Positions 7,479 to 64,000 of a DNA stretch of 64,000 bases are shown piece by piece (positions within the stretch are counted from its first letter, which is position 1; every line of letters starts with the position of its first letter). The notes under the pieces are model-generated. The model had not been told where the DNA came from. It did no database searches and was given only the letters and a program-made list of their open reading frames with translations. Source of the DNA: Leuctra nigra (Eukaryota > Arthropoda > Insecta > Plecoptera > Leuctridae); assembly GCA_934045905.1 (NCBI GenBank), contig OW203767.1, forward strand, positions 24,245,073-24,309,072, written 5' to 3'. The position numbers and the translations under genes were made by a program.

Positions 7479-8771
7479 ATGGCCATACGCGAAATGTCTT
7501 CTAACGTTTTAACATTCTATTTAATAGTGTTATTTGCGTTATTTGCAAATGTTTGTGCTAAGGAATACGTTCCTGTATTACTCTGGGAATCTAGTGCAAC
7601 TGGAAGTGAAGATGTTGGATCTCGGCCGGCCCTTACCAAATGGCCCACAGACGAATTTGCAGACTACATTGCCAAGAAGGTGAACTCCTACAAAGAAAAG
7701 CCTTTGATTGTTGTGTTTTCCGAGGAGAATCTGAGTATTGAAGACTTCAGCTGGCATGATGTATCGGAGCAAGGTTCATTTCCTCAACTGGAGAGTTTGA
7801 CAAAGAAGTCGACGAGAGTGAACTTTTTCCCATCCGTTCATGCTCCGCTACGAGCTATCAAAGATCTAGTCAACGACGGTTATGCGTATAAAACAGTTGA
7901 TCTGAACAACAATAAGAATGCACCGGTCACAGCCGATGATGGCACTGTGTTGCTGATCAAATTGGAGGACCCTGAATCTACCGAAGATCGTCCCACGTTT
8001 CTTAGCCGCCACGACAAAATAATCAAAGATATTTACACCGAGCTTCTCTCCAAGCATCCTCGTATCCTTACCGTCTACACTGGTCGCTATGCATCGTTCT
8101 TGGACACCGATCCCGAGCCAATCCACCGAGTACGAAGACTTTTGGCAGAGACCAACGAAACAGCAAAAGCACCAGCCGAAGGTGACTCGAAACTGTGGCG
8201 CGACAAAGATAGCAAAGTATTCATGTATTTCGCTGGTCCTTACCCAACTCTTACCTCCGATAACACCTCTCAGGAGCTGAAGACTTACACAGATACGCCT
8301 ACGATCGACGAACGAGACAACTTACAGCGCTTCATCGTCACTTTCGCAGCCCAAGGTCGTAAAATCACTTTGCGTTTCCGTTTTCCCATGTCTCGAAACA
8401 GTTACTGGTCCTTGCCGACAATCGAGTATGAAGAATCTGGTAAAACCCTCTGGCTTGAAAGTGCCTCCGAACCCATCGAGGCGCCCAACAACTTCTCGTA
8501 CCATTGCCGTCGCTCCATGTTTTTCAAGAACGGATCCGTCACTTTGAACTTGACCGACGTGCAAATAGAGCCACGCTTGCAGAAACCGATGTTCTCCGAC
8601 AGCTACGATTGCGTCTGGTTCTTCACGGCACCCATCTGGTCTGGAATATTCGTCACCTTCCTCTTGGCTCTCATCTTGACTTGGGGAATTACGATGATCA
8701 TGGACATCAGAACGATGGACCGGTTCGATGACCCCAAGGGTAAAACCATCACCATCAGCGCTACCGAATAA
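7479..8771 (+). CDS. ATP6AP1: V-type proton ATPase subunit S1 (Ac45)
   Basis: Accessory subunit of the V-ATPase, a type I membrane protein acting in assembly and targeting of the proton pump in the secretory and endolysosomal system. The 430-residue reading frame is intact. It has a signal peptide of about 27 residues before KEYVPVLLWESS, a long luminal region with several N-glycosylation sequons (NLS, NETA, NTS, NFS, NGS, NLT), a single membrane span at about residues 384-407, and the family's cytosolic tail motif TMDRFDDPKGKTI. A furin-type RVRR lies at residues 217-220, matching the proteolytic maturation known in the family. The gene has no intron here, unlike its neighbours. It could be a functional retrocopy or an intron-poor native gene. 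AATAAA occurs at 9195-9200. Confidence 0.93.
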   Translation: MAIREMSSNVLTFYLIVLFALFANVCAKEYVPVLLWESSATGSEDVGSRPALTKWPTDEFADYIAKKVNSYKEKPLIVVFSEENLSIEDFSWHDVSEQGSFPQLESLTKKSTRVNFFPSVHAPLRAIKDLVNDGYAYKTVDLNNNKNAPVTADDGTVLLIKLEDPESTEDRPTFLSRHDKIIKDIYTELLSKHPRILTVYTGRYASFLDTDPEPIHRVRRLLAETNETAKAPAEGDSKLWRDKDSKVFMYFAGPYPTLTSDNTSQELKTYTDTPTIDERDNLQRFIVTFAAQGRKITLRFRFPMSRNSYWSLPTIEYEESGKTLWLESASEPIEAPNNFSYHCRRSMFFKNGSVTLNLTDVQIEPRLQKPMFSDSYDCVWFFTAPIWSGIFVTFLLALILTWGITMIMDIRTMDRFDDPKGKTITISATE

Positions 8772-16443: not shown

Positions 16444-19400
16444 TTATTTATTCTTTATTATCACTAAATATGTGAGTAAAAACATGTATTGAACGACATT
16501 GATATTGCCTTTTCCAGACTTAGAGGCAGTATATGTACGTCTATCGGGCATTTTCCCGATCTCACCTGAAAAAAACAAGTATTTTAATTGCCAATCAATC
16601 AATAAAAGAATGTTAGTAATTATTACTTTACAAATTGAAGACGACTTTAGTGTTGACTTACTTCTCCAACTTTGAGCGGGGACGTCGCAGAGACCTGTGT
16701 AGACGACGTTGGGCGTCAGACCTTCAGGGCATCGCGACGCCGACGTCTCTCCTGTCATGTAGACGGCGACGGCGTCGATGTTGCCGGCCGGTGCGTAGTT
16801 GCAGACCAACAGCTCGACGCTAGTGCCATCTGGTGGGACATTCATCGTGGAATAATAGCAAACTCTCGCAAAGATTCATAGTCTTGAGTTTATACTTTCT
16901 GCTTTTAAATGGGCTTGTTCACTGCCATTTGCTCTCACCAGGATCGCTAGCATCGGATTAGATTGGGCAGCTTCGTTGGGCCGAGATTAGTAACATTTTT
17001 CTTAGTAACCAAAATGTCCGTGGGATAGCGCCAGCGGTTGAGAAACATCTTTGGTAGCAACTAAAATGAGTTTTAAAGAGTTTAAATAACCAATTTATGT
17101 ATAGTCTTTGGTAGTCTGTTGTAATCTCAAATACATTTAAAAATGTAAATTACAGTGTCCTACGTGCATAATATCTTTGTAAAACGAAATGTCATCATTG
17201 ACCCAACATAAATTCCATATTTTTAAATTTTCGTCATCTTGCCGCATTCTAATCTCTGCCCAGTAAATAGTTTTCACATGAAAACAAGATACGACTTCAG
17301 GCTACATCTTTGTACTATGTACATTTGAGTTTTTTTTGCTTTTTCTGTTAATTTTTAGGTCATTTTTAATAATGTAAACACTCTGTGCCGTAATTATTTG
17401 TACCGGAAATCAAAGCCGGAAATGACGTCATTTTGTTACCAATCTCGGCCTAAGGTCGGATTAAAGTACGTAACATAGTGGCGCCATCTATGCTGAGCTT
17501 TGCGTGAACAAGCCCATTGCAAAGTACATAATATGGAGCAAGAGATCAGCATTTGAAGATAAACGAAATCCAAACTGTGGATTTGTAACAACTTGTTAAA
17601 AAAATAGGTAGGTATACCAAGGAAAGGAGCATTTTTATGTAGATCATATAACTATTATCTCTTGGTGTAGGACGGTATTGGTACAAGAGAATCTGTTTTA
17701 CCCACATGAAGCAATCACCAGATTGGTTGGAAACAAACAGTTCGATCCAACCATAAGTTATTAGCAATTACGAACAAGTTGGCTCAGTCAGACACGCTTT
17801 AGGAGCTGTACTCTGGAGGTCCCCACAGTCGATTTCTCAGACCGGCCGTGGGAAATGAACGGAGATCACCATCTGAGCCAACTTGCTCCATGTGATGTCA
17901 CTTACTGCCCCTGTCCATCACCCTCCTGCCGCAGCCGACTTGCTCCATGGGATGTCACTTACTGCCCCTGTCCATCACCCTCCTGCCGCAGCCGACTTGC
18001 TCCGTGTGATGTCACTTACTGCCCCTGTCCATCACCCTCCTGCCGAGCCGACTTGCTCCGTGTGATGTCACTTACTGCCCCTGTACATCACCCTCCTGCC
18101 GCAGCCGACTTGCGCCGTGTGATGTCACTTACTGCCCTGTCCATCACCCTCCTGCCGCAGCCGACTTGCTCCATGATGATGTCACTTACTGCCCCTGTCC
18201 ATCACCCTCCTGCCGCAGCCGACTTGCTCCATGTGATGTCACTTACTGCCCCTGTCCATCACCCTCCTGCCGCAGCCGACTTGCTCCGTGTGATGTCACT
18301 TACTGCCCCTGTCCATCACCCTCCTGCCGCAGCCGACTTGCTCCGTGTGATGACACTTACTGCCCCCGTCCATCACCCTCCTGCCGCAGCCGACTTGCTC
18401 CATGTGATGTCACTTACTGCCCCTGTCCATCACCCTCCTGCCGCAGCCGACTTGCTCCGTGTGATGACACTTACTGCCCATGTCCATCACCCTCCTGCCG
18501 CAGCCGACTTGCTCCGTGTGATGTCACTTACTGCCCCTGTCCATCACCCTCCTGCCGCAGCCGACTTGCTCCGTGTGATGTCACTTACTGCCCCTGTCCA
18601 TCACCCTCCTGCCGCAGCCGACTTGCTCCGTGTGATGTCACTTACTGCCCTGTCCATCACCCTCCTGCCGCAGCCGACTTGCTCCATGTGATGTCACTTA
18701 CTGCCCCTGTCCATCACCCTCCTGCCGCAGCCGACTTGCTCCATGTGATGTCACTTACTGCCCCTGTCCATCACCCTCCTGCCGCAGCCGACTTGCTCCA
18801 TGTGATGTCACTTACTGCCCCTGTCCATCACTCTCCTGCCGCAGCCGACTTGCTCCATGTGATGTCACTTACTGCCCCTGTCCATCACCCTCCTGCAGCA
18901 ACCGACTTGCTCCGTGTGATGTCACTTACTGCCCCTGTCCATCCCCCTCCTGCCGCAGCCGACTTGCTCCATGTGATGTCCCTTACTGCCCCTGTCCATC
19001 ACCCTCCTGCCGCAGCCGACTTGCGCCGTGTGATGTAACTTACTGCCCCTGTCCATCACCCTCCTGCCGCAGCCGACTTGCTCCGTGTGATGTCACTTAC
19101 TGCCCCTGTCCATCACCCTCCTGCCACAGCCGACTTGCTCCGTGTGATGTCACTTACTGCCCCTGTCCATCACCCTCCTGCCGCAGCCGACTTGCTCCGT
19201 GTGATGTCACTTACTGCCCCTGTCCATCACCCTCCTGCCGCAGCCGACTTGCGCCGTGTGATGTCACTTACTGCCCCTGTCCATCACCCTCCCGCCGCAG
19301 CCGACTTGCTCCATGTGATGTCACTTACTGCCCCTGTCCATCACCCTCCTGCCGCAGCCGACTTGCTCCGTGTGATGACACTTACTGCCCATGTCCATCA

Positions 19401-22400
19401 CCCTCCTGCCGCAGCCGACTTGCTCCGTGTGATGTCACTTACTGCCCCTGTCCATCACCCTCCTGCCGCAGCCGACTTGCTCCGTGTGATGTCACTTACT
19501 GCCCCTGTCCATCACCCTCCTGCCGCAGCCGACTTGCTCCGTGTGATGTCACTTACTGCCCTGTCCATCACCCTCCTGCCGCAGCCGACTTGCTCCATGT
19601 GATGTCACTTACTGCCCCTGTCCATCACCCTCCTGCCGCAGCCGACTTGCTCCATGTGATGTCACTTACTGCCCCTGTCCATCACCCTCCTGCCGCAGCC
19701 GACTTGCTCCATGTGATGTCACTTACTGCCCCTGTCCATCACTCTCCTGCCGCAGCCGACTTGCTCCATGTGATGTCACTTACTGCCCCTGTCCATCACC
19801 CTCCTGCAGCAACCGACTTGCTCCGTGTGATGTCACTTACTGCCCCTGTCCATCCCCCTCCTGCCGCAGCCGACTTGCTCCATGTGATGTCCCTTACTGC
19901 CCCTGTCCATCACCCTCCTGCCGCAGCCGACTTGCGCCGTGTGATGTAACTTACTGCCCCTGTCCATCACCCTCCTGCCGCAGCCGACTTGCTCCGTGTG
20001 ATGTCACTTACTGCCCCTGTCCATCACCCTCCTGCCACAGCCGACTTGCTCCGTGTGATGTCACTTACTGCCCCTGTCCATCACCCTCCTGCCGCAGCCG
20101 ACTTGCTCCGTGTGATGTCACTTACTGCCCCTGTCCATCACCCTCCTGCCGCAGCCGACTTGCGCCGTGTGATGTCACTTACTGCCCCTGTCCATCACCC
20201 TCCCGCCGCAGCCGACTTGCTCCATGTGATGTCACTTACTGCCCCTGTCCATCACCCTCCTGCCGCAGCCGACTTCCTTCGTGTGATGTCACTTACTGCC
20301 CCTGTCCATCACCCTCCTGCCGCAGCCGACTTGCTCCATGTGATGTCACTTACTGCCCCTGTCCATCACCCTCCTGCCGCAGCCGACTTGCGCCGTGTGA
20401 TGTCACTTAATGACCCTGTCCATCACCCTCCTGCCGACTTGCTCCATGTGATGTCACTTACTGCCCCTGTCCATCACCCTCCTGCCGCAGCCGACTTCCT
20501 CCATGTGATGTCACTTACTGCCCCTGTCCATCAACCTCCTGCCGCAGCCGACTTGCTTCGTGTGATGTCACTTACTGCCCCTGTTCATCAACCTCCTGCC
20601 GCAGCCGACTTGCTCCATGTGATGTCACCTACTGCCCCTGTCCATCACCCTCCTGCCGCAGCCGACTTGCTCCGTGTGATGCCACTTACTGCCCCTGTCC
20701 ATCACCCTCCTGCCGCAGCCGACTTGCGCCGTGTGATGTCACTTACTGCACCTGTCCATCACCCTCCTGCCGCAGCCGACTTGCGCCGTGTGATGTCACT
20801 TACTGCCCCTGTCCATCACCCTCCTGCCGCAGCCGACTTGCGCCGTGTGATGTCACTTACTGCCCCTGTCCATCACCCTCCCGCCGCAGCCGACTTGCTC
20901 CATGTGATGTCACTTACTGCCCCTGTCCATCACCCTCCTGCCGCAGCCGACTTCCTTCGTGTGATGTCACTTACTGCCCCTGTCCATCACCCTCCTGCCG
21001 CAGCCGACTTGCTCCATGTGATGTCACTTACTGCCCCTGTCCATCAACCTCCTGCCGCAGCCGACTTGCTTCGTGTGATGTCACTTACTGCCCCTGTTCA
21101 TCAACCTCCTGCCGCAGCCGACTTGCTCCATGTGATGTCACCTACTGCCCCTGTCCATCACCCTCCTGCTGCAGCCGACTTGCTCCGTGTGATGTCACTT
21201 ACTGCCCCTGTCCATCACCCTCCTGCCGCAGCCGACTTGCGCCGTGTGATGTCACTTACTGCCCCTGTCCATCACCCTCCTGCCGCAGCCGACTTGCGCC
21301 GTGTGATGTCACTTACTGCCCCTGTCCATCACCCTCCTGCCGCAGCCGACTTGCGCCGTGTGATGTCACTTACTGCCCCTGTCCATCACCCTCCTGCCGC
21401 AGCCGACTTGCTCCATGTGATGTCACTTACTGCCCCTGTCCATCACCCTCCTGCCGCAGCCGACTTGCTCCATGTGATGTCACTTACTGCCCCTATCCAT
21501 CACCCACCTGCCGCAGCCGACTTGCTCCATGTGATGTCACTTACTGCCCCTATCCATCACCCTCCTGCCGCAGCCGACTTGCTCCATGTGATGTCACTTA
21601 CTGCTTCTGTCCATCACCCTCCTACCGCAGCCGACTTGCTCCATGTGATGTCACTTACTGCCCCTGTCCATCACCCTCCTGCCGCAGCCGACTTGCTCCG
21701 TGTGATGTCACTTACTGCCCCTGTCCATCACCCTCCTGCCGCAGCCGACTTGCTCCATGTGATGTCACTTACTGCCCCTGTCCATCACCCTCCTACCGCA
21801 GCCGACTTGCTCCGTGTGATGTCACTTACTGCCCCTGTCCATCACCCTCCTGCCGCAGCCGACTTGCTCCGTGTGATGTCACTTACTGAACCTGTCCATC
21901 ACCCTCCTGCCGCAGCCGACTTGCTCCGTGTGATGTCACTTACTGCCCCTGTCCATCACCCTCCTGCCGCAGCCGACTTGCTCAATGTGATGTCACTTAC
22001 TGCCCCTGTCCATCACCCTCCTGCCGCAGCCGACTTGCTCCGTGTGATGTCACTTACTGCCTCTGTCCATCACCCTCCTGCCGCAGCCGACTTGCTCCAT
22101 GTGATGTCACTTACTGCCCCTGTCCATCACCCTCCTGCCGCAGCCGACTTGCTCCGTGTGATGTCACTTACTGCCCCTGTCCATCACCCTCCTGCCGCAG
22201 CCGACTAGCGCCGTGTGATGTCACTTACTGCCCCTGTCCATCACCCTCCTGCCGCAGCCGACTTGCTCCATGTGATGTCACTTACTGCCCCCGTCCATCA
22301 CCCTCCTGCCGCAGCCGACTTGTTCCGTGTGATGTCACTTACTGCCCCTGTCCATCACCCTCCTGCCGCAGCCGACTTGCTCCATGTGATGTCACTTACT

Positions 22401-25400
22401 GCCCCTGTCCATCACCCTCCTGCCGCAGCCGACTTGCGCCGTGTGATGTCACTTACTGCCCCTGTCCATCACCCTCCTGCCGCAGTCGACTTGCTCCGTG
22501 TGATGTCACTTACTGCCTCTGTCCATCACCCTCCTACCGCAGCCGACTTGCTCCATGTGATGTCACTTAATGCCCCTGTCCATCCCCCTTCTGCCGCAGC
22601 CGACTTGCTCCGTGTGATGTCACTTACTGCCCCTGTCCATCACCCTCCTGCCCCAGCCGACTTGCGCCGTGTGATGTAACTTACTGCCCCTGTCCATCAC
22701 CCTCCTGCCGCAGCCGACTTGCTCCGTGTGATGTCACTTACTGCCCCTGTCCATCACCCTCCTGCCGCAGCCGACTTGCGCCGTGTGATGTAACTTACTG
22801 CCCCTGTCCATCACCCTCCTGCCGCAGCCGACTTGCTCCGTGTGATGTCACTTACTGCCCCTGTCCATCACCCTCCTGCCGACTTGCTCCGTGTGATGTC
22901 ACTTACTGCCCCTGTCCATCACTCTCCTGCCGCAGCCGACTTGCTCCGTGTGATGTCACTTACTGCCCCTGTCCATCACCCTCCTGCCGCAGCCGACTTG
23001 CTTCGTGTGATGTCACTTACTGCCCCTGTCCATCACCCTCCTGCCGCAGCCGACTTGCGCCGTGTGATGTAACTTACTGCCCCTGTCCATCACCCTCCTG
23101 CCGCAGCCGACTTGCTCCGTGTGATGTCACTTACTGCCCCTGTCCATCACCCTCCTGCCGACTTGCTCCGTGTGATGTCACTTACTGCCCCTGTCCATCA
23201 CCCTCCTGCCGCAGCCGACTTGCTCCGTGTGATGTCACTTACTGCCCCTGTCCATCACCCTCCTGCCGACTTGCTCCGTGTGATGTCACTTACTGCCCCT
23301 GTCCATCACCCTCCTGCCGCAGCCGACTTGCTTCGTGTGATGTCACTTACTGCCCCTGTCCATCACCCTCCTGCCGCAGCCGACTTGCTCCATGTGATGT
23401 CACTTACTGCCCCTGTCCATCACCCTCCTGCCGCAGCCGACTTGCGCCGTGTGATGTCACTTACTGCCCCTGTCCATCACCCTCCCGCCGCAGCCGACTT
23501 GCGCCGTGTGATGTCACTTACTGCCCCTGTCCATCACCCTCCTGCCGCAGCCGACTTGCTCCGTGTGATGTCACTTACTGCCCCTGTCCATCACCCTCCT
23601 GCCGCAGCCGACTTGCTCCGTGTGATGTCACTTACTGCCCCTGTCCATTACCCTCCTGCCGCAGCCGACTTGCTCCGTGTGATGTCACTTACTGCCCCTG
23701 TCCATCACCCTCCTGCCGCAGCCGACTTGCTCCGTGTGATGTCATTTACTGCCCCTGTCCATAACCCTCCTGCCGCAGCCGACTTGCTCCGTGTGATGTC
23801 ACTAATTGCCCCTGTCCATCTCCCTCCTGCCGCAGCCGACTTGCTTCGTGTGATGTCACTTACTGCCCCTGTCCATCACCCTCCTGCCGCAGCCGACTTG
23901 CTCCATGTGATGTCACTTACTGCCCCTGTCCATCACCCTCCTGCCGCAGCCGACTTGCTCCATGTGATGTCACTTACTGCCCCTATCCATCACCCACCTG
24001 CCGCAGCCGACTTGCTCCATGTGATGTCACTTACTGCCCCTATCCATCACCCTCCTGCCGCAGCCGACTTGCTCCATGTGATGTCACTTACTGCCCCTGT
24101 CCATCACCCTCCTACCGCAGCCGACTTGCTCCATGTGATGTCACTTACTGCCCCTGTCCATCACCCTCCTGCCGCAGCCGACTTGCTCCGTGTGATGTCA
24201 CTTACTGCCCCTGTCCATCACCCTCCTGCCGCAGCCGACTTGCTCCATGTGATGTCACTTACTGCCCCTGTCCATCACCCTCCTACCGCAGCCGACTTGC
24301 TCCGTGTGATGTCACTTACTGCCCCTGTCCATCACCCTCCTGCCGCAGCCGACTTGCTCCGTGTGATGTCACTTACTGAACCTGTCCATCACCCTCCTGC
24401 CGCAGCCGACTTGCTCCGTGTGATGTCACTTACTGCCCCTGTCCATCACCCTCCTGCCGCAGCCGACTTGCTCAATGTGATGTCACTTACTGCCCCTGTC
24501 CATCACCCTCCTGCCGCAGCCGACTTGCTCCGTGTGATGTCACTTACTGCCTCTGTCCATCACCCTCCTGCCGCAGCCGACTTGCTCCATGTGATGTCAC
24601 TTACTGCCCCTGTCCATCACCCTCCTGCCGCAGCCGACTTGCTCCGTGTGATGTCACTTACTGCCCCTGTCCATCACCCTCCTGCCGCAGCCGACTTGCG
24701 CCGTGTGATGTCACTTACTGCCCCTGTCCATCACCCTCCTGCCGCAGCCGACTTGCTCCATGTGATGTCACTTACTGCCCCCGTCCATCACCCTCCTGCC
24801 GCAGCCGACTTGTTCCGTGTGATGTCACTTACTGCCCCTGTCCATCACCCTCCTGCCGCAGCCGACTTGCTCCGTGTGATGTCACTTACTGCCTCTGTCC
24901 ATCACCCTCCTACCGCAGCCGACTTGCTCCATGTGATGTCACTTAATGCCCCTGTCCATCCCCCTTCTGCCGCAGCCGACTTGCTCCGTGTGATGTCACT
25001 TACTGCACCTGTCCATCACCCTCCTGCCGCAGCCGACTTGCGCCGTGTGATGTAACTTACTGCCCCTGTCCATCACCCTCCTGCCGCAGCCGACTTGCTC
25101 CGTGTGATGTCACTTACTGCCCCTGTCCATCACCCTCCTGCCGCAGCCGACTTGCGCCGTGTGATGTAACTTACTGCCCCTGTCCATCACCCTCCTGCCG
25201 CAGCCGACTTGCTCCGTGTGATGTCACTTACTGCCCCTGTCCATCACCCTCCTGCCGACTTGCTCCGTGTGATGTCACTTACTGCCCCTGTCCATCACTC
25301 TCCTGCCGCAGCCGACTTGCTCCGTGTGATGTCACTTACTGCCCCTGTCCATCACCCTCCTGCCGCAGCCGACTTGCTTCGTGTGATGTCACTTACTGCC

Positions 25401-28400
25401 CCTGTCCATCACCCTTCTGCCGCAGCCGACTTGCGCCGTGTGATGTAACTTACTGCCCCTGTCCATCACCCTCCTGCCGCAGCCGACTTGCTCCGTGTGA
25501 TGTCACTTACTGCCCCTGTCCATCACCCTCCTGCCGACTTGCTCCGTGTGATGTCACTTACTGCCCCTGTCCATCACCCTCCTGCCGCAGCCGACTTGCT
25601 CCGTGTGATGTCACTTACTGCCCCTGTCCATCACCCTCCTGCCGACTTGCTCCGTGTGATGTCACTTACTGCCCCTGTCCATCACCCTCCTGCCGCAGCC
25701 GACTTGCTTCGTGTGATGTCACTTACTGCCCCTGTCCATCACCCTCCTGCCGCAGCCGACTTGCTCCATGTGATGTCACTTACTGCCCCTGTCCATCACC
25801 CTCCTGCCGCAGCCGACTTGCGCCGTGTGATGTCACTTACTGCCCCTGTCCATCACCCTCCCGCCGCAGCCGACTTGCGCCGTGTGATGTCACTTACTGC
25901 CCCTGTCCATCACCCTCCTGCCGCAGCCGACTTGCTCCGTGTGATGTCACTTACTGCCCCTGTCCATCACCCTCCTGCCGCAGCCGACTTGCTCCGTGTG
26001 ATGTCACTTACTGCCCCTGTCCATTACCCTCCTGCCGCAGCCGACTTGCTCCGTGTGATGTCACTTACTGCCCCTGTCCATCACCCTCCTGCCGCAGCCG
26101 ACTTGCTCCGTGTGATGTCATTTACTGCCCCTGTCCATCACCCTCCTGCCGCAGCCGACTTGCTCCGTGTGATGTCACTTACTGCCCCTGTCCATCTCTC
26201 TCCTGCCGCAGCCGACTTGCTTCGTGTGATGTCACTTACTGCCCCTATCCATCACCCTCCTGCCGCAGCCGACTTGCTCCGTGTGATGTCACTTACTGCC
26301 CCTGTCCCTCACCCTCCTGCCGCAGCCGACTTGCTCCGTGTGATGTCACTTACTGCCCCTGTCCATCACCCTCCTGCCGCAGCCGACTTGCTCCGTGTGA
26401 TGTCACTTACTGCCCCTGTCCATCACCCTCCTACCGCAGCCGACTTGCTCCGTGTGATGTCACTTACTGCCCCTGTCCATCACCCTCCTGCCGCAGCCGA
26501 CTTGCTCCGTGTGATGTCACTTACTGCCCCTGTACATCACCCTCCTGTCGCAGCTGACTTGCTCCGTTTGATGTCACTTACTGCCCCTGTCCATCACCCT
26601 CCTGCCGCAGCCGACTTGCTCCGTGTGATGTCACTTACTGCCCCTGTCCATCACCCTCCTGCCGCAGCCGACTTGCTCCGTGTGATGTCACTTACTGTCT
26701 CTGTCCATCACCCTCCTGCCGCAGCCGACTTCCTCCGTGTGATGTCACTTACTGCCCCTGTCCATCACCCTCCTGCCGCATCCGACTTGCTCCATGTGAT
26801 GTCACTTACTGCCCCTGTCCATCACCCTCCTGCCGCAGCCGACTTGCTCCGTGTGATGTCACTTACTGCCCCTGTCCATCACCCTCCTGCCGCAGCCGAC
26901 TTGCTCCGTGTGACGTCACTTACTGCCCCTGTCCATCACCCTCCTGCCGCAGCCGACTTGCGCCGTGTGATGTCACTTACTGCCCCTGTCCATCACCCTC
27001 CTGCCGCAGCCGACTTGCTCCGTGTGATGTCACTTACTGCCCCTGTCCATCACCCTCCTGCCGCAGCTGACTTGCTCCGTGTGATGTCACTTACTGCCCC
27101 TGTCCATCACCCTCCTGCCGACTTGCTCCGTGTGATGTCACTTACTGCCCCTGTCCATCACCCTCCTGCCGCAGCCGACTTGCGCCGTGTGATGTAACTT
27201 ACTGCCCCTGTCCATCACCCTCCTGCCGCAGCCGACTTGCTCCATGTGATGTCACTTACTGCCCCTGTCCATCACCCTCCTGCCGCAGCCGACTTGCGCC
27301 GTGTGATGTCACTTACTGCCCCTGTGAATCACCCTCCTGCCGCAGCCGACTTGCTCCGTGTGATATCACTCACTGCCCCTGTCCATCACCCTCCTGCCGC
27401 AGCCGACTTGCGCCGTGTGATGTAACTTACTGCGTCTGTCCATCACCCTCCTGCCGCAGCCGACTTGCTCCATGTGATGTCACTTACTGCCCCTGTCCAT
27501 CACCCTCCTGCCGCAGCCGACTTGCGCCGTGTCCGCCCACACCAGCTGCGTGTAGGCGTCGACCCGACGTCGGGACGCTTCCTCGGCGTCGTAGCACTGT
27601 ATGAGACGCGCGTCGACGTGGACGACCTGCGTGAACCATGAGTGCACGCAGGATGCTGGGTCCAGACTGAAGTCGCCGGTGCGGTCGCTAAGAGTCATTA
27701 CATTCTGACCGACTCGCATGTCTAAATGACAGGAAGTATTAGTCAGGGGACGAACGGGTCGAAAACAATTATTAGTCATGCTACAGGCATTACTTTTTAA
27801 TTTCCCTAACTCTTTCTTGGGGAGGTAATGGCAAGTTTCCAGGGGCTGTTCCGTCCATTAAAATTATGTCACTGATTTTAGGTCTTCATTGACGCCCCCT
27901 CTCCCCCTCCCCCATGGCATAGCAGTCAAAGATTTTCTCCTAGTAATAACGTCACAAAATGTGGACGACCCCCCTCATTGAAATTTTTGATCAAATTCAT
28001 CTTGATTTTGATTTTAGAAACTATTATTAAAAATTACCGATTACCTGACAATACAGCCTTTTTTATCAAATTTGTTCAGTTTTAAAAATAAAACATTTAA
28101 GGAAAGATGAGTTTTGGAAGTGTGACGTCACACAACTATTAACCCCCCCCCCCCCCCCCCCCCAAAAAAAGCGACCGGAAATTCGCGTGCCAATTTTCAC
28201 GCTATATGGGACGAAAATTTGTTTCGGCGCTCGGATTTGGCCCTCGAGAAAGACTTGGCAAAATAGTAGATATTTTCTGCATACTTTTCGGCGTAAAGGG
28301 ACAGAGTTTCGGCGCAAATGCAAGAAAAATGGTTTCGGCGCACGGGGAAACGTGAATTGACGTACCCCGTTCATCTGCCATTTACCTGTCACATCCCGGC

Positions 28401-28728
28401 ATGCATCTCTCCCGTCGACCCCCTGGTCCGCCCACCGCTGCGCCACCGTCGCCAACTCGTCGTTCCACGTCAACGCCCTCATGTTGCTCGCCCTCGGCTG
28501 AGTCGTCAGGACGTCGGGCATCAGGACGACGCCCCGGGCGACGCCGTCGCGGACCTCGTTGTGCTTCTCCAGCAGGACGAGCTTCTCGGCGGCGCTCAAC
28601 GGCGTCGTGGCGGCGTCCCTCGGGTAGAGGCACATGGTGTGGTCGGTGCAGAGTTTGCAGTAGTCGGTACAGAGGGAGGGCGTTGTGGCGAGGAGGTGGA
28701 GGATGATGGTTGTGAGATAGAGTGACAT
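16444..28728 (-). CDS. secreted CAP (CRISP/antigen 5-like) protein
   Basis: Cysteine-rich secreted CAP-superfamily protein. Four exons join in phase: 28728-28386, 27721-27488, 16862-16662 and 16565-16444 (299 residues). It has a signal peptide (MSLYLTTIILHLLATTPSLC) and then an insect antigen-5-type N-terminal Cys pattern (TDYCKLCTDHTMC). CAP motifs follow in order: EKHNEVRDGVARG, ALTWNDELATVAQRWAD, RVGQNV, YTQLVWADTAQVGCG, LLVCNYAPAGN and YTGLC. The C-terminal 40 residues end in a hydrophobic run (YMFLLTYLVII) that might be a membrane or lipid anchor. The biological role of such proteins in insects is unsettled (saliva, venom, hemolymph, reproductive tract). Intron 2 is 10.6 kb and mostly a minisatellite whose unit is a copy of the exon 2 tail and its splice donor. 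The acceptor at 16863-16864 was chosen by phase and is the least certain joint. Confidence 0.85.
16910..17516. mobile_element. MITE 48 bp from a CAP splice acceptor
   Basis: The ends TGGGCTTGTTCAC and GTGAACAAGCCCA are inverted repeats. An inner pair, ggccgagattagtaac and gttaccaatctcggcc, reinforces the symmetry. It contains 'ccggaaatgacgtcatttt' (17404-17436), resembling the TGACGTCA/CCGG repeats at 59.2-60.4 kb. It shares its outer sequence with the MITE at 11170-11548. Confidence 0.65.
17878..27540 (-). repeat. 57-bp minisatellite, about 170 copies, built from the CAP exon tail and its 5' splice site
   Basis: Head-to-tail 57-bp units fill 9.7 kb of CAP intron 2. Read in gene direction each unit contains the last coding bases of exon 2 (CGGCTGCGGCAGGAGGGTGA then TGGACAGGGGCA) followed by the donor GTAAGTGACATCACATG. 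The unit at the 27.5-kb edge is the real exon end. Variants differ by single bases (CCATG/CCGTG/GCCGTG) or lack 6 bp (51-bp units). Higher-order duplications are visible: about 911 bp (18.4-19.3 vs 19.3-20.2 kb) and about 2.4 kb (21.4-23.8 vs 23.8-26.2 kb). Because 57 is a multiple of 3, long plus-strand reading frames exist, but they are by-products. In the exon frame on the minus strand each unit has TGA right after the donor. Confidence 0.95.
27789..28385. other. CAP intron 1 with poly-C tract
   Basis: Intron between exons 1 and 2, with a run of about 22 C at 28143-28164. No additional exon is seen. Confidence 0.4.
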
Positions 28729-28925
28729 TTTCACACATTGTCTCTGCGGAAGAAAATATTCCCATCGAAGTTTTTGTAGCATATAACTCTATTTTTATCA
28801 CTTAATTACAAAAATTTACATAAAAATTAAAAATATAGCATCCAAGCATGAAAGAAGGTGTGCACAAATTTTAATTAATTCTGAACTTCTGTGTTGTTTA
28901 CATATTTGTGAAAACAGTGAGATAA

Positions 28926-41100: not shown

Positions 41101-43844
41101 CGGCCAGCCGAAAACGACATAAGATAATTGAGCGAGCGTAGCGAGCGTCACTACGGTACTCTTATGGCACTTTCTCTGTGTTTTTTTTTGTCTGCACAGC
41201 CTAGGTTAAACCGCACATTCAATCAATCTGAAACTTTGCACATGCTAACGTAATCTATGCGGTCCCTGGGATCGTTTTTGAACGGGCTCCTGTGATTGGT
41301 TCAAGTTTTAACAAAATTATCTTTCGATTGGTTTCTGCGATCAATTTGAAATATTAGCAAAGTCATTGTAATCAACATTTTACCCAATCATACAAAGTTT
41401 CAGCCAAATCCTCCCATTGGTTAAAATTTAAAACCATTTTTCATGTGATTTTTTAAATTTAAATTAGAACAGATTGACCGATCAACTTAAAACTTCGCGT
41501 GGTCATTGCCCATTGGTACCAACATTTTAGGTATTTTTGCCAATTTTCAGTCTTATCTATCGTTATTTTCAAAAGTTTTTGTCATTTTAGGGACATTTTA
41601 TTCGATAATCTTGAAATATTTGAAACATTTATACTACATTTTCATCCCTGCCTTCTTTAAGCATCTGCTCCAAGGCCTGTAGAGCAGCAAAGCAGTACGG
41701 CCGTACGCGCATCAAATCGGATGCAGTACGAAGGCCAAATCCTCCAATAGGCAACTCTCTCTAGTTAGCAATTTCATTAAAATATTCTGAATTTAGTAGA
41801 GGAACATATTTCGATCATGCCCACATATATATTTTCACAGAATAACATTATTTCTCTGAATAAACAGTGTTTTCCCGATCACTATTCTTCATGAAATTCC
41901 TCACATTCCAATCTTAAACAAGAACGCGCTGCGATTGGCTCATCGGTCTGTGACGTCAGAATGGTGCAGCTGACTTTTGACAGAATCAAATACAATGGTG
42001 TTATGTGCTGTGATAAGTTTAAGATGTTTAAACTTTTGGATATTGAATTTTCTCCGGCATATTATGGCAATTTGCTGTATGTGTACATCATAATTGTAAT
42101 GTGCTATATTATTAATGAAGAATAATGGATGAGCAGTGTTGAAATGAGTTTTAAATCGAAGGTAAGTACCTAGGTCTATCCGTCACTTGCTGTCACAAGC
42201 TCCAAGTTGCATTGTTATGACGGAAGTGGCTACAGTCACGGTACCCCGTGACAGCAGTGAAATGCAAAATGGCCGGCACGCTCCCGTGACAGCAGTGAAA
42301 AATGACACCTAAACACTGCTGCCACGGGGGGGGCGTGCACACGCGCTGGCGTGAAAGCAGTGTTTCTATGGTTTGGCCCAAGCGGCTGTTTATTTCTTGT
42401 TTATTATTGAAAATTACATTTACGGCTGTATCTACACTATTTTTTACAAAACGACACAATGGATCTGTTATTCATCCAGAGTATTTATATGGAGATTGAA
42501 AAGTTGGAGAGAAAATCGTCTTGTGCCGTGTCGTGTATCGTGACTATGGGGATGTTGCATGTTCTGTGCTCGCTCATCAACGCGTTACACTGAGCGTTTT
42601 CCTAGTTACGTTTCTAAATGGAACTGTGTAGATGGAAGCTTGTGTATTAAAGAGTAATTTGCTTATCCAACAGCACCGAACATTTGATACCCTCACATGT
42701 GTACTGATTGGAACGTTCGTATTTGGGGCATCAATTCTTTTCGTCTTCTGTTGGTTGTTCGACAAAATAACCGAGACGGTAATGATATAAATCAATACAG
42801 TGAAGTTACTTGGTCCACACGTTGGGCGCCATTTGAAACCCTCTCGTCACTTAATGTTTTAGTGCGAAGGAGTGAGGGAGGCTATCTACGGATGTGATTG
42901 GTTCGAAGCGTCGGAAAGCTTCAAGCGTTCAATGCGTATCATGATGTCGATGGCTAACCAACCTTCTGCAGTGATGATTGCCAGTACAATTCCGCTGTCG
43001 TTAGATACATACCGAGAGGTGAGTTGAACTTTGAAAATATCGATGCCCTTCATGATTTGTTTTAGGGATGGAGCGAACTCGGATTATGATATCGACTATC
43101 GATATCATTTATATATCAATATACATCGATATATCGAAGTATCGATATACAACGATATATCGAAGTATTGATATATCGAAGTATCGATATATCGATATAT
43201 AGATATATCGATATATTGAAATATTGAAATATGAAATATCGATATATTGAAATATCGAAATATTGATAAATGGAAAGAATATATTTAGATGTACAGGAAT
43301 GGAAATATTGATATATCGCAGGAATGTATTAAATTGATCCTAAAACTGCTAGGAATTTCAAAAGAAAATGTAAAAAGAAATAACACAGCCGTTCCAAAAT
43401 ATTGGGTCACTATCCAGATAAGAAAGAAAATGTGAATAATCTGAGAAATTGTACATACATCTGGTAAACGCTGCACTGCAAATATGAATTATTTTGCCAT
43501 AGTGGGTATAAACTACAATTAAGAACATAATTGTATCATGCGGAAAGGCTTCAATATTTCGATATTTCAGTACCGATATTTCAATATTTCGATATTTCAA
43601 TATTTCAATATATCGATATATCGATATTTCGATATTTCAATATATCGATATTCAATATATTCAGGTATCTATATTTCGATATTTTTTATATTGATATATA
43701 TCGATATATCGATATTTTCTCCATCCCTAATTTGTTTAGTTTGAATTAATTATATTAACTTACTCGAGATTTCTGTTCCAGGTATTTAAGATAGCTCACA
43801 GTTATTATAATTGTGTTTCATCCACAGTTAAAAGCTATTCTTAA
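38182..43844 (+). CDS. insect odorant receptor (7tm_6), complete
   Basis: Ligand-binding odorant receptor subunit, expected to act with the co-receptor Orco in the dendrites of olfactory neurons. Six exons join in phase: 38182-38618, 39248-39589, 40299-40398, 42674-42778, 42863-43018 and 43782-43844, total 1203 bp, 400 residues, the usual family length. The start is MVDYSDNVQKSFKNRLKFYL. HHQALIKSFNEHVDIF spans the exon 2/3 joint and matches the conserved pre-TM4 region. The C-terminal family signature is clear: REAIYGCDWFEASESFKRSM, then PLSLDTYREVFKIAHSYYN. Acceptors and donors are canonical. Introns carry a LINE fragment, a Harbinger-type MITE, Helitron-like copy D (ending 67 bp before exon 4) and a hAT-type element. 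The exon sequence is uninterrupted, so it is probably functional. Confidence 0.9.
38960..39230. repeat. dispersed repeat, partner at 46600-46835
   Basis: Shares 'tatcaattgcc.tttgact.atgt', 'gtattctcttac', 'gtgaccattacaaat.tgattg' and 'ctcgcctcaagaat' with 46600-46835. It is in intron 1 of the odorant receptor. It could be a transposon, or the partner could be a relic of a duplicated receptor gene. Confidence 0.45.
39640..39860 (-). mobile_element. LINE reverse-transcriptase C-terminal fragment
   Basis: The minus-strand translation contains WYGHVQ, then in a shifted frame RMGEERCPKRINKC, MPPGRRRGRSKKR and RRRWNLECG. This is the typical C-terminal tail of insect non-LTR retrotransposon polyproteins. 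It is frameshifted and truncated. It sits in intron 2 of the odorant receptor, opposite in strand. Confidence 0.6.
40661..41119. mobile_element. PIF/Harbinger-type MITE with TAA target duplication
   Basis: Ends TGTCGTTTTCGGCTGGCCGC and its complement, with the inverted repeat extending to about 37 bp with one mismatch. TAA flanks both sides (40658-40660 and 41120-41122), the 3-bp duplication typical of Harbinger. 459 bp, in odorant receptor intron 3, directly abutting Helitron-like copy D. Confidence 0.75.
41128..42606 (+). mobile_element. Helitron/Helentron-like element, copy D
   Basis: 5' TTGAGCGAGCGTAGCGAGCG and 3' hairpin CGCTCA..TGAGCG, then TTTTC, CTAGT (42602-42606). 1479 bp with no coding capacity recognised. 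It lies in odorant receptor intron 3 and ends 67 bp upstream of exon 4. Confidence 0.65.
43063..43729. mobile_element. hAT-type element filled with ATATCGAT palindromes
   Basis: Ends TAGGGATGGAG and CTCCATCCCTA, flanked by exact 8-bp duplications ATTTGTTT (43055-43062 and 43730-43737). The interior is mostly 'atatcgatat' and 'gatatttcaat' repeats in both orientations around a 250-bp unique core. It occupies most of the last intron of the odorant receptor. Confidence 0.8.
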
Positions 43845-47175: not shown

Positions 47176-48090
47176 TCACTTCATGCCATACAGATACGGG
47201 TACGCATGTGCCGGTATCGGTAGGAAGGGCACCAGCATGGCTTGCCGATGATACTGGGGCTGATGGGTGCGCGCGTGCTTCTTGAGATGGTCTTTACGTC
47301 CGAACCGCTTGCCGCAAGACGTACACGCGTAAGGACGCAAGCCGCTGTGGATTGTCACATCACTACATGCCGTACAGATACGGGTACGCATGTGCCGGTA
47401 TCGGTAGGAAGGGCACCAGCATGGCTTGCCGATGATACTGGGGCTGATGGGTGCGGGCGTGCTTCTTGAGATGGTCTTTACGTCCGAACCGCTTGCCGCA
47501 AGGCGTACACGCGTAAGGACGCAAGCCGCTGTGGATTGTCACATCACTACATGCCGTACAGATACGGGTACGCATGTGCCGGTATCGGTAGGAAGGGCAC
47601 CAGCATGGCTTGCCGATGATACTGGGGCTGATGGGTGCGGGCGTGCTTCTTGAGATGGTCTTTACGTCCGAACCGCTTGCCCCAAGACGTACACGCGTAA
47701 GGACGCAAGCCGCTGTGGATTGTCACATCACTACATGCCGTACAGATACGGGTACGCATGCGCCGGTATCGGTAGGAAGGGCACCAGCATGGCTTGCCGA
47801 TGATACTGGGGCTGATGGGTGCGGGCGTGCTTCTTGAGATGGTCTTTACGTCCGAACCGCTTGCCGCAAGACGTACACGCGTAAGGACGCAAGCCGCTGT
47901 GGATTGTCACATCACTACATGCCGTACAGATACGGGTACGCATGCGCCGGTATCGGTAGGAAGGGCACCAGCATGGCTTGCCGATGATACTGGGGCTGAT
48001 GGGTGCGGGCGTGCTTCTTGAGATGGTCTTTACGTCCGAACCGCTTGCCGCAAGACGTACACGCGTAAGGACGCAAGCCGCTGTGGATAC
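47176..48090 (-). repeat. 184-bp tandem multiplication of the terminal zinc-finger exon, 5 copies
   Basis: Five nearly identical copies, period 184 bp, of the last exon from the end of finger 2 to the C-terminus. The copies are joined by a 14-bp filler (tgtcacatcactac) that is not part of the exon. The first copy in gene direction is the real exon. It terminates at TAG (47917-47915), created at the junction, whereas the last copy ends ...YLYGMK-stop. Since 184 is not a multiple of 3, downstream copies are out of frame with one another and would be 3' UTR. Copies differ at only a few bases, implying recent expansion. Confidence 0.9.
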
Positions 48091-56953: not shown

Positions 56954-57540
56954 TAATCAGCATGAAAGTTGCTGATCTGTCTTTAACAATTTGCAAAGTA
57001 TCGAGGAAAAATTGAAATCTTCTGAAAATGGGGCTTACTATACTAAAAATATTGACTATTTGTATACTTATAATCGGATAAAATGTTGGTCAACATTTTA
57101 TCTTGATTTGAAAAAAGGTTCATTTTCACTTTTCAGCCAATCAGAGGATTTTGCTCAAATTCTATGACCACTGAGATGTTGTAGTGGTGCAAAATGTAAG
57201 ATATATTGGTTGACCGGTGTTACCTCGGCATTGCCTACCAAACAAGAAAAACAATTACAAACGAAGGAAACGCTGAATTCGTATGTTTATCCATATCTTA
57301 TGCAGTTGTGATTGTCGTGTTGCCAGATGTACCAGAATGTTTCGCCATCTGGAACTGCACCAATATGATGAGATATGTCGTCACAGCCCCGACCATCTGG
57401 CAACAGAGCAACAGATTTTAACATTGGATTTAGGTGTTATTTTCTTTAGTAACACTGATTCGATAATGATGGCCACAGTACTGCAAGTACTGCAAATATT
57501 AGAAGTCGAAGCATATTATTTGATTATAAAATTCCCTTAA
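56954..57540. other. intergenic, nothing recognised
   Basis: Short reading frames at 57206-57540 show no domain. Confidence 0.3.
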
Positions 57541-59243: not shown

Positions 59244-59835
59244 GCTTTAAGTTTCGTTACAATCGGTCCAGCCGTTTTCGATATATGACGTCACTTCCGG
59301 TTTTAGCAATGGCGGCCGAAAATAATGTCGTCTTGAATTCATAATTATTACTCCTACACATTTCCAAAATTTGTTTGCAATCGGTACAGCCGTTTTTGAT
59401 ATATGACGTCACTTCCGGTTTTAACAATGGCGGCCGAAAATAATGTCGTCTTGAATTCATAATTATTAGTACAACACATTTCCAAAATTTGGTTGCAATC
59501 GGTACAGCCATTTTCGATATATGACGTCACTTCCGGTTTTAACAATGGCGGCCGAAAATAATGTCGTCTTGAATTCATAATTATTAGTACAACACATTTC
59601 CAAAATTTGATTGCAATCGGTACAGCCATTTTCGATATTTGACGTCACTTCCGGTTTTAACAATGGCGGCCGAAAATAATGTCGTCTTGAATTCATAATT
59701 ATTAGTCCAACACATTTCCAAACTTAGGTTGCAATCGGTACAACCGTTTACGATATATGACGTCACTTCCGGTTTTAAAAATGGCCGCCGAGAACACTGC
59801 AACCTTGAATTTATAATTATTTACAAAGTACGTTT
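59244..59835. repeat. five 118-119 bp tandem units with CRE-ETS-YY1-like motif block
   Basis: TGACGTCA occurs at 59285, 59404, 59522, 59640 and 59758 (spacing 119, 118, 118, 118). In each unit it is followed by CTTCCGG and then by an ATGGC(G/C)GCCG block, and preceded by 'aatcggt(c/a)ca.cc'. TGACGTCACTTCCGG is a composite CREB/ATF plus ETS consensus and AATGGCGGC matches a YY1 core. Confidence 0.8.
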
Positions 59836-61582: not shown

Positions 61583-62505
61583 TCACCGAGTAGGCCAGAA
61601 TCAAGTCCCCATATGACTTACCGAGTAGGCCAGGTTCAAGTCCATATGACTTACCGATTAGGCCAGGTTCAAGTCCATATGACTTACCGGGTAGGCCAGG
61701 TTTAAGTCCATATGACTTACTGGGTAGGACAGGTTCCAGTCCATATGACTTACCGAGTAGGCCAAATGCAAGTCCATATGACTTACCGAGTAGGCCAGGT
61801 TCAAGTCCATGGCTTACCGAGTAGGCCAGGTCCAAGTCCATATGACTTACCGAGTAGGCCAGAATCAAGTCCCCATATGACTTACCGAGTAGGCCAGGTT
61901 CAAGTCCATATGACTTACCGATTAGGCCAGGTCCAAGTCTATATGACTTACCGAGTAGGCCAGGTCCAAGTCCATATGACTTACCGAGTAGGCCAGGTTT
62001 AAGTCCATATGACTTACTGGGTAGGACAGGTTCCAGTCCATATGACTTACCGAGTAGGCCAAATGCAAGTCCATATGACTTACCGAGTAGGCCAGGTTCA
62101 TGTCCATATGACTTACCGAGTAGGCCAGGTTTAAGTCCATGGCTTACCGAGTAGGCCAGGTCCAAGTCCATATGACTTACCGAGTAGGCCAGGTTCAAGT
62201 CCATATGACTTACCGAGTAGGCCAGGTTCAAGTCCATATGACTTACCGAGTAGGCCAGGTTCAAGTCCATATGACTTACCGAGTAGGCCAGGTTCAAGTC
62301 CATATGACTTACCGAGTAGGCCAGGTCCAAGTCCATATGACTTACCGAGTAGGCCAGGTTCAAGTCCATATGACTTACCAAATAGGCCAGGTTCAAGTCC
62401 ATATGACTTACCGAGTAGGCCAGGTTCAAGTCCATATGACTTACCGAGTAGGCCAGGTTCAAGTCCATATGACTTACCGAGTAGGCCAGGTCCAAGTCCA
62501 CGTTG
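61583..62505 (-). repeat. 33-bp minisatellite, 28 copies, built from a gustatory receptor exon tail and its 5' splice site
   Basis: In gene direction each unit is GTAAGTCATATGGACTTG plus AACCTGGCCTACTCG, that is, the splice donor and intron start followed by the last bases of the exon. The unit nearest 62.49 kb is the real exon end (GTGGACTTGGACC, then TGGCCTACTCG, then GTAAGT). A few units differ by 2 bp (ccatggc, gtccccat) or single bases. Part of the array is duplicated as a block of about 0.3 kb. The array is open on the minus strand throughout and would encode the 11-residue repeat VSHMDLNLAYS if read through. Confidence 0.95.
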
Positions 62506-64000
62506 AAGAAGCCTCCAGCTGTAAAGACCAGGCGACGATGTAACAGCTGTCCAGAGAACTGAGTCATCTGCAGGACAATGTGAGTCTCTTTATTTGATTC
62601 TTTAGGTTAAATGAAAAACTCTGAGGAAAATCAGTGTAAAAAACCTTTATAATGCGCACTTTATTTATACGCACTTTCCCGCCCAAAAGTCGATTGATCT
62701 TTAAATAGGGCCATGAAAGAGGTTCAAGAAGAGGAAAATGATAATTTTTCACGCACATAAAGATTGCCTTTAGTTTTAGAGCATATTTATAGTGACTTTA
62801 TACGTGATACCAAAGGGAAACTGGTTTTAAAAATATATGGGTATAACAAGTATTATTATTCTACAACTTACTGCATTTCGCACTGGGAAAACTGAGGGAC
62901 CATAGTCCGGCCACGATATGCTGTGGAAAATCTCTGCAGTTTCCAGTGCCTGCAATAGACACATTTCACATCAATGGAAATTATTTTTGGTCCAAAAAAA
63001 TCTTGAAAGCCCTTTAGGAGAAAATTGCTGGCAGAAAATATATACATATTTTTTTGCTGATATTTGCGAAAACGTTGAAAAGAAACGCTCGCAGTTCAGT
63101 CGTCAATCCATGCAATACAAATTCCATATTGAATGATCGTCGTGCTTATTAACTTACCGTGTTAGTTGTCGAGTTACAAAGAAAGCAGAAACACAGAGTC
63201 TTGAAGATGTACATTACTGGTGCCACCAAGACACTGTATATTATCAAGGGATTGTCCCGGAGAGCAAATGTAAAGAACACAACCAAAATTTCCAAGAGAT
63301 TGAGAAAGTAGAGCGTGATAAGAAGCAGGATATTTATGGAGAACACATTGTTGATGAGCGAAGCTGCGTCACAGAGAGCTGCATGGATTGCCGACGCCGT
63401 CTTGACATCGGCGACGTGCACCTTGCCTCTCAGGTGGCCGTTGAGGAGTCGGAGGCGTTGGCGAACACAACTGACACAAGTCAAGTACAGACTTTCACCA
63501 ATAACCATCAGATTGTACTTCGAGAGGATAGCAAACCCACAGAAGTAAGTCCAAAATGGATTTTCGTGCGTGATATCGAAGTACGAGATGACAATGCTGG
63601 TTTCAATTACCAAGTTCAAATAAACGAGTGTCGTAAATGTTATTTTGTTTCTTTTGTGTGGAATATTAACATTCAACTTTTCTAATAAATAATCGGCGTG
63701 ATTAATCTTCGAAAATATTGTCATCACTTTAATCTGCCTTAATCCACTAATTACAAAGAGAACAACTAGAAGTAGAGTAGCCGAATAGTCGATTGTGGCT
63801 AATGGAGTTAGAATGTTTGTGGGTTCAAGAGTGTGATAAATGACTTGAAACCATGCTGTATACTGAACAATGATGAGGGCAGTTATGACTGTCAAACTGT
63901 ACGCAGCTCCGATGTAGGAGACTTGAAACTTGGCGCCTTCTGATGTAGATGTTTGGAGTTTGACGCTAGTCAGACCGACAAGTTTAGACAAGTAGAAAAG
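62478..64000 (-). CDS. insect gustatory receptor (7tm_7), partial
   Basis: Seven-transmembrane taste receptor channel subunit of chemosensory neurons. Three exons join in phase 0: 64000-63158 (open at the window edge, with in-frame LFYLSKLVGL before SVKLQTS), 62949-62872 and 62567-62478, about 337 residues. The large exon has several hydrophobic spans. The last visible exon has the family's C-terminal region QFSGQLLHRRLVFTAGGFFN. The expected final exon with the TYxxxxxQF motif is not visible; it should follow the donor at 62477. That donor is the first of 28 tandem copies. Whether splicing always uses the first donor cannot be told from sequence. The 5' end is probably just beyond the window. 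Confidence 0.85.

Follow-up and report, generated by a model that had tools for sequence, protein, structure and literature searches.

The 64,000-nucleotide stretch of contig OW203767.1 of the plecopteran Leuctra nigra (assembly GCA_934045905.1, forward-strand positions 24,245,073 to 24,309,072), hereafter called the window, harbours on its minus strand a predicted gene of the CAP/venom allergen family, the second intron of which begins with a long tandem array of 57-bp units, each made of the tail of exon 2 followed by its splice donor. Two other exon-tail arrays occur in the window, one in a gustatory-receptor gene, also equipped with donors, and one devoid of donors in a zinc-finger gene (Table 1). 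The present analysis deals with the anatomy of the CAP array, with its predicted consequences for the CAP protein, and with the relationships of these arrays to donor-bearing repeats described in human genes.

Table 1. Positions in the window of the exon-tail arrays and of the predicted exons that host them.
Feature	Position	Strand	Remark
57-bp exon-tail and donor array, 170 units	17876..27532	-	Unit 1 forms the end of exon 2 of the CAP gene
Predicted CAP exon 1	28386..28782	-	From the first ATG of the open reading frame
Predicted CAP exon 2	27488..27721	-	Donor 1 at 27487
First in-frame TGA of the intron	27480..27482	-	Stops any reading past donor 1
Predicted CAP exon 3	16662..16829	-	168 nt
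Predicted CAP exon 4	16444..16565	-	Coding part
Second exon-tail and donor array, 33 bp	61585..62500	-	28 donors (62477 to 61586)
Gustatory-receptor exon	62478..62567	-	Its tail seeds the second array
Predicted last receptor exon	57298..57396	-	Seventh transmembrane segment (TM7), TYLIILVQF
Third array, without donors	47176..48088	-	184-bp unit in five copies, from the coding tail of a zinc-finger gene; copy 1 has its stop at 47917

The CAP array was delineated by Tandem Repeats Finder as a repeat of period 57 with 170.3 copies and 95% matches between positions 17876 and 27532, and a count anchored on the minus strand gives 170 units, a copy number that is the value in this one assembly. The donor of unit 1 is that of exon 2 itself (exon end at 27488, GT at 27487) and, counted back from the donor, 45 nt of the consensus unit match exon 2 with a single mismatch, a position where the variant base recurs in 29 of the 169 donor-to-donor units. 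Most of these donor-to-donor lengths are of 57 bp (158 of 169), the others measuring 51 bp (eight) or 56 bp (three). The hexamer GTAAGT is present in 159/170 units, and the eleven others read TTAAGT (three), GTAAAT, GTAGGT and GTAAGG (two each), GTGAGT and ATTAGT (one each). For comparison, the 53,427 nt that remain when both donor arrays are removed from the window contain 23 GTAAGT on both strands, a density at which a stretch of the size of the array (9.7 kb) would contain about 2 per strand. An earlier note on this DNA had correctly described some 170 tandem 57-bp units made of the exon 2 tail plus donor, starting at the real exon end and nearly all keeping GTAAGT; its list of exceptions omitted GTAAGG, GTGAGT and ATTAGT, and its span of 17878-27540 designates the same array with coordinates that are off by a few bases.

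Once joined, the predicted exons encode a protein of the CAP/venom allergen family (PF00188, E 2.7e-14, profile positions 1-117 of 117), whose top solved relatives by sequence are the venom allergens 2vzn and 1qnx, and whose sequence relatives are distributed among mixed arthropods and other organisms. Position 16829 is the more likely acceptor of exon 3, since the protein alignment across the resulting junction is gapless with 2vzn and shows a one-residue gap with 1qnx, whereas the acceptor put forward previously, at 16862, is in frame too but inserts 11 extra residues. With these predicted exons, and as judged by protein alignment, splicing from donor 1 would yield the canonical CAP protein. 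Past this donor, the frame of exon 2 reaches the TGA at 27482, just inside intron 2, and all of the donors 2 to 170 lie beyond it, so that they would share one and the same product, computed for donor 2 as a protein of 212 residues ending in RRVMDRGSK. Any of these later donors is thus predicted to give a truncated protein missing the end of the CAP domain, and full-length CAP would require donor 1. A TGA in phase with the unit's own donor occurs in 154 of the 170 units. Owing to its length of 168 nt, exon 3 could be skipped without loss of the frame, the computed product lacking 56 residues.

The gustatory-receptor array shares the same construction. It begins at the end of the predicted exon 62567-62478, own donor included, and displays GTAAGT in 25 of its 28 donors, usually in the context TCG|GTAAGT. 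The join from 62478 to 57396 is gapless in comparison with all five aligned relatives, chosen from 20 hits, and the joined protein is an insect chemosensory receptor (PF08395 7tm_7, E 2.4e-31). Its C-terminus contains TYLIILVQF, a form of the TY-QF motif which we take to be a mark of these receptors. As for the CAP gene, use of the first donor would lead to the canonical protein, on the predicted exons. The outcome of later choices would depend on the donor: with donors 2-11, each unit would add 11 residues in frame and without a stop, whereas among donors 12-28 the frame of the last exon is kept by three (20, 21 and 28) and lost by 14. The last intron of the receptor gene also contains a 118-bp array of 4.8 copies (59252-59821) with motifs resembling TGACGTCA; similar motifs are found near 17,430 and 28,130.

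The third array is organized differently, its copies 2-5 lying beyond the stop codon at 47917, and no donor series was found between 47176 and 48088. The final copy ends with ATGAAGTGA and the other copies with ATGTAGTGA, perhaps the older end of the gene. Taken together, three of the five arrays of the window scoring above 500 have a first unit that overlaps a coding exon's 3' end, be it a donor or a stop. With random placement, at least three such arrays out of five would be expected with P values of 5e-5, 3e-4 and 1e-3 for 11, 20 and 30 assumed exon ends, respectively, a probability calculated after the result was known and for which 11 is our own count of predicted exons. Tolerance is a likely reason for this location, because copies added after a coding end land in an intron or in the 3' untranslated region.

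Donor-bearing repeats of this kind have been described in human genes. The variable number tandem repeat (VNTR) of ABCA7 intron 18 immediately flanks exon 18 and includes its donor (PMC5954066); its 25-bp units number about 12 in the shortest alleles (298 bp) and about 427 in the longest (10,678 bp). An isoform that retains one unit by use of the next donor, with a broken frame, accounts for about 2% and is unchanged with repeat length, whereas skipping of exon 19 increased with length and expression for the longest diploid combination was 33% below that for the shortest (PMC5954066). The CAP array resembles this VNTR in its intronic position at an exon end, in the inclusion of the donor, the ABCA7 units beginning with GT, and in its kilobase size. 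It differs by its 57-bp unit, in frame and provided with a TGA, as opposed to a 25-bp unit that is out of frame, and the exon skipping and the lower expression measured for ABCA7 are predictions for CAP.

Another comparison concerns the minisatellite of the human gene IFI6/G1P3 (6-16), reportedly the subject of work by Turri et al. in 1995. This minisatellite is cited as providing multiple splice donor sites (PMC2572611, PMC4526556), and two of its downstream repeat units act as donors, giving three mRNAs (PMC4526556). It has in common with the CAP array a donor-bearing repeat at an exon end but differs in that its alternative isoforms are established, whereas in CAP reading on towards a later donor runs straight into a stop. 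Both the CAP and the receptor arrays start at a predicted exon 3' end and carry a donor per unit, as do the exon-end donor minisatellites of the ABCA7 and IFI6 type, and the statement of the earlier note that no system of such form had been described was therefore mistaken. The tandem dual-specific splice sites of human UBC (PMC10809524) are also regularly spaced within a tandem repeat, but they consist of AGGT sites serving as donor and acceptor between coding monomers, whereas the commonest contexts of the CAP and receptor donors are devoid of AG|GT, with 142/170 CAP sites reading GCAGTAAGTGA. No acceptor-like tract occurs in the CAP array, the longest pyrimidine run of which is 4 nt. Recursive or dual-specific splicing was rejected for the CAP array. 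Among invertebrates, the first intron of an earthworm metallothionein gene also accommodates a long tandem array, but the available part of that paper makes no mention of exon tails or donors within the units (PMC12783039); the available part of PMC9909926 deals with a subject other than donors. A literature search covering titles and abstract openings, with most subscription journals outside its scope, found no donor array in an insect. What looks new is the occurrence in an insect, the units consisting mostly of exon sequence with a stop right behind the first donor, and the presence of several exon-tail arrays close together.

In our opinion, with a probability of roughly 0.7, the 170 units of the CAP array are copies of the predicted exon-2/intron-2 junction that multiplied passively as a minisatellite, in which the donors are passengers and splicing at donors other than the first would yield a truncated protein. 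The array would have originated from a single initial duplication of the junction, for which the short exonic sequence ACACGG and its match 57 bp further on may have served as endpoints, and would then have grown through unequal exchange and the duplication of blocks. Its likely tolerance would stem from the fact that exon 2 can still be spliced to exon 3 from donor 1, which leaves the other copies intronic, and the occurrence of two more exon-tail arrays in the window speaks for a general process. The array comprises 64 distinct unit sequences among 170, blocks that recur 16, 42 and 44 units apart over exact stretches of 16, 12 and 9 units, and an identity to the consensus that remains even along its length (0.961-0.982 in thirteen bins), all of which is compatible with ordinary minisatellite turnover.

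Donors under selection should be located in columns that vary less than the others. In the 169 donor-to-donor units of CAP, 12 of 1014 cells are variant in the donor columns, as compared to 18 of 1352 in the next eight intron columns (P 0.85). Among 52 six-column windows ranked from the lowest, the donor window occupies the 7th position for variant copies, the 11th for haplotypes and the 36th for kinds of change, and 13-27% of the random draws of six columns are as low as the donor set. Since the donor columns show no stronger conservation than the intron columns that follow them, and blocks have been duplicated, the donors look like passengers. As a test of selection on donors, column variability leaves the CAP donors indistinct from the neighbouring intron columns and the receptor donors weakly distinct from the rest of their unit.

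Donors 2 to 170 would compete with donor 1, and it is reasonable to suppose that the array affects which donor is chosen. By analogy with what is reported for the ABCA7 repeat, the array likely acts as a brake on full-length CAP mRNA, the strength of which would depend on array length, and the CAP counterpart of ABCA7 exon 19 skipping would be in-frame skipping of exon 3. Several observations weigh against the passive origin of the array or against the effect attributed to it. The braking effect is borrowed by analogy and, in ABCA7 itself, the use of later donors did not rise with length, the brake accompanying exon 19 skipping instead (PMC5954066). The ACACGG match at the breakpoint is one reading of the array edges. 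Moreover, the CAP donor columns are slightly less variable than all other columns minus two biallelic ones (12/1014 versus 171/8281 variant cells, P 0.055, the cells not being independent), and the difference is more pronounced in the receptor array (2/162 versus 37/729, P 0.03). This somewhat lower variability leaves room for weak selection on the donors and lends at most weak support to it.

This same low variability, together with the 159 exact GTAAGT among 170 donor-like sites where about 2 per strand are expected, would fit a selected platform that gathers U1 small nuclear ribonucleoprotein particles (snRNPs) and either protects a long pre-mRNA or steadies the use of donor 1. Such a platform appears unlikely, as the donor columns are no more conserved than their intron neighbours and the zinc-finger array is devoid of donors. 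In addition, the sense strand of the whole intron (27487-16830) contains no AATAAA and a single ATTAAA, these two hexamers being the only ones scanned, which would leave little to act on inside this intron for the suppression of premature polyadenylation suggested in the earlier note. The duplex energy with U1 is -6.4 for the usual CAP donor, -9.3 for the receptor array and -14.0 for the consensus, which makes the usual CAP donor a predicted match of modest quality. The predicted chance that the six donor bases are all unpaired is above the local median of 0.035 for 17 CAP donors (0.044-0.231), whereas 25 receptor donors range from 0.001 to 0.020 for a local median of 0.020; RNA structure as a mask for the donors was dropped because the two arrays show no consistent pattern. 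The CAP array is unlikely to have evolved as a device for U1.

Use of the array as a regulated switch, in which later donors would produce a truncated, secreted form in place of full-length CAP, would account for the single product to which all these donors lead, and finds precedents in the one-unit retention isoform of ABCA7 at about 2% (PMC5954066) and in the later IFI6 units used as donors (PMC4526556). The in-phase TGA of the units argues against such a switch, improbable in our view, since only the first one counts for the outcome and a long array would not be needed. Long tandem arrays are often mis-sized in assemblies, but the 64 distinct unit sequences are arranged in an ordered block structure and two other arrays made of different units occur in the window, which makes it very unlikely that the CAP array or its length is an artefact. 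Finally, two plus-strand frames are open over long distances, up to 739 amino acids with a start codon and 752 codons from stop to stop. However, any stop-free frame of a 57-bp unit (3 x 19) opens repeatedly, the units are copies of a CAP exon located on the opposite strand, and the same two frames contain 26 and 24 stops over the array; coding on the plus strand was accordingly rejected as very unlikely.

Besides the passive growth favoured for the CAP array, a broader proposal considers a genome-wide class, in which a process favouring exon 3' ends copies exon tails downstream, often with the donor, so that many genes would possess long donor ladders, the heritable length of which would tune splicing and the size of the protein; this extension is doubtful for the moment. 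In this genome, the seeding of arrays at exon ends may have taken place repeatedly. Elsewhere in the window, 8-bp repeats resembling ATATCGAT form two stretches at 43089-43717, and a V-ATPase S1 (Ac45) gene made of a single open reading frame occupies positions 7479-8771 of the plus strand, its closest relatives, among the best 120 of 489, belonging to a katydid (46%), stick insects and termites, in agreement with an insect origin of the DNA, perhaps a polyneopteran one.

With respect to its significance, the CAP array provides the human repeats of ABCA7 and IFI6 with a counterpart in an invertebrate. It also offers a natural test of donor choice, in which one right donor is confronted with 169 near-identical copies and a stop codon flags the wrong choices. 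If the three exon-tail arrays found in 64 kb are typical of the genome, they would point to an exon-end bias in the birth or survival of repeats, and such a bias, if present, would be measurable genome-wide.
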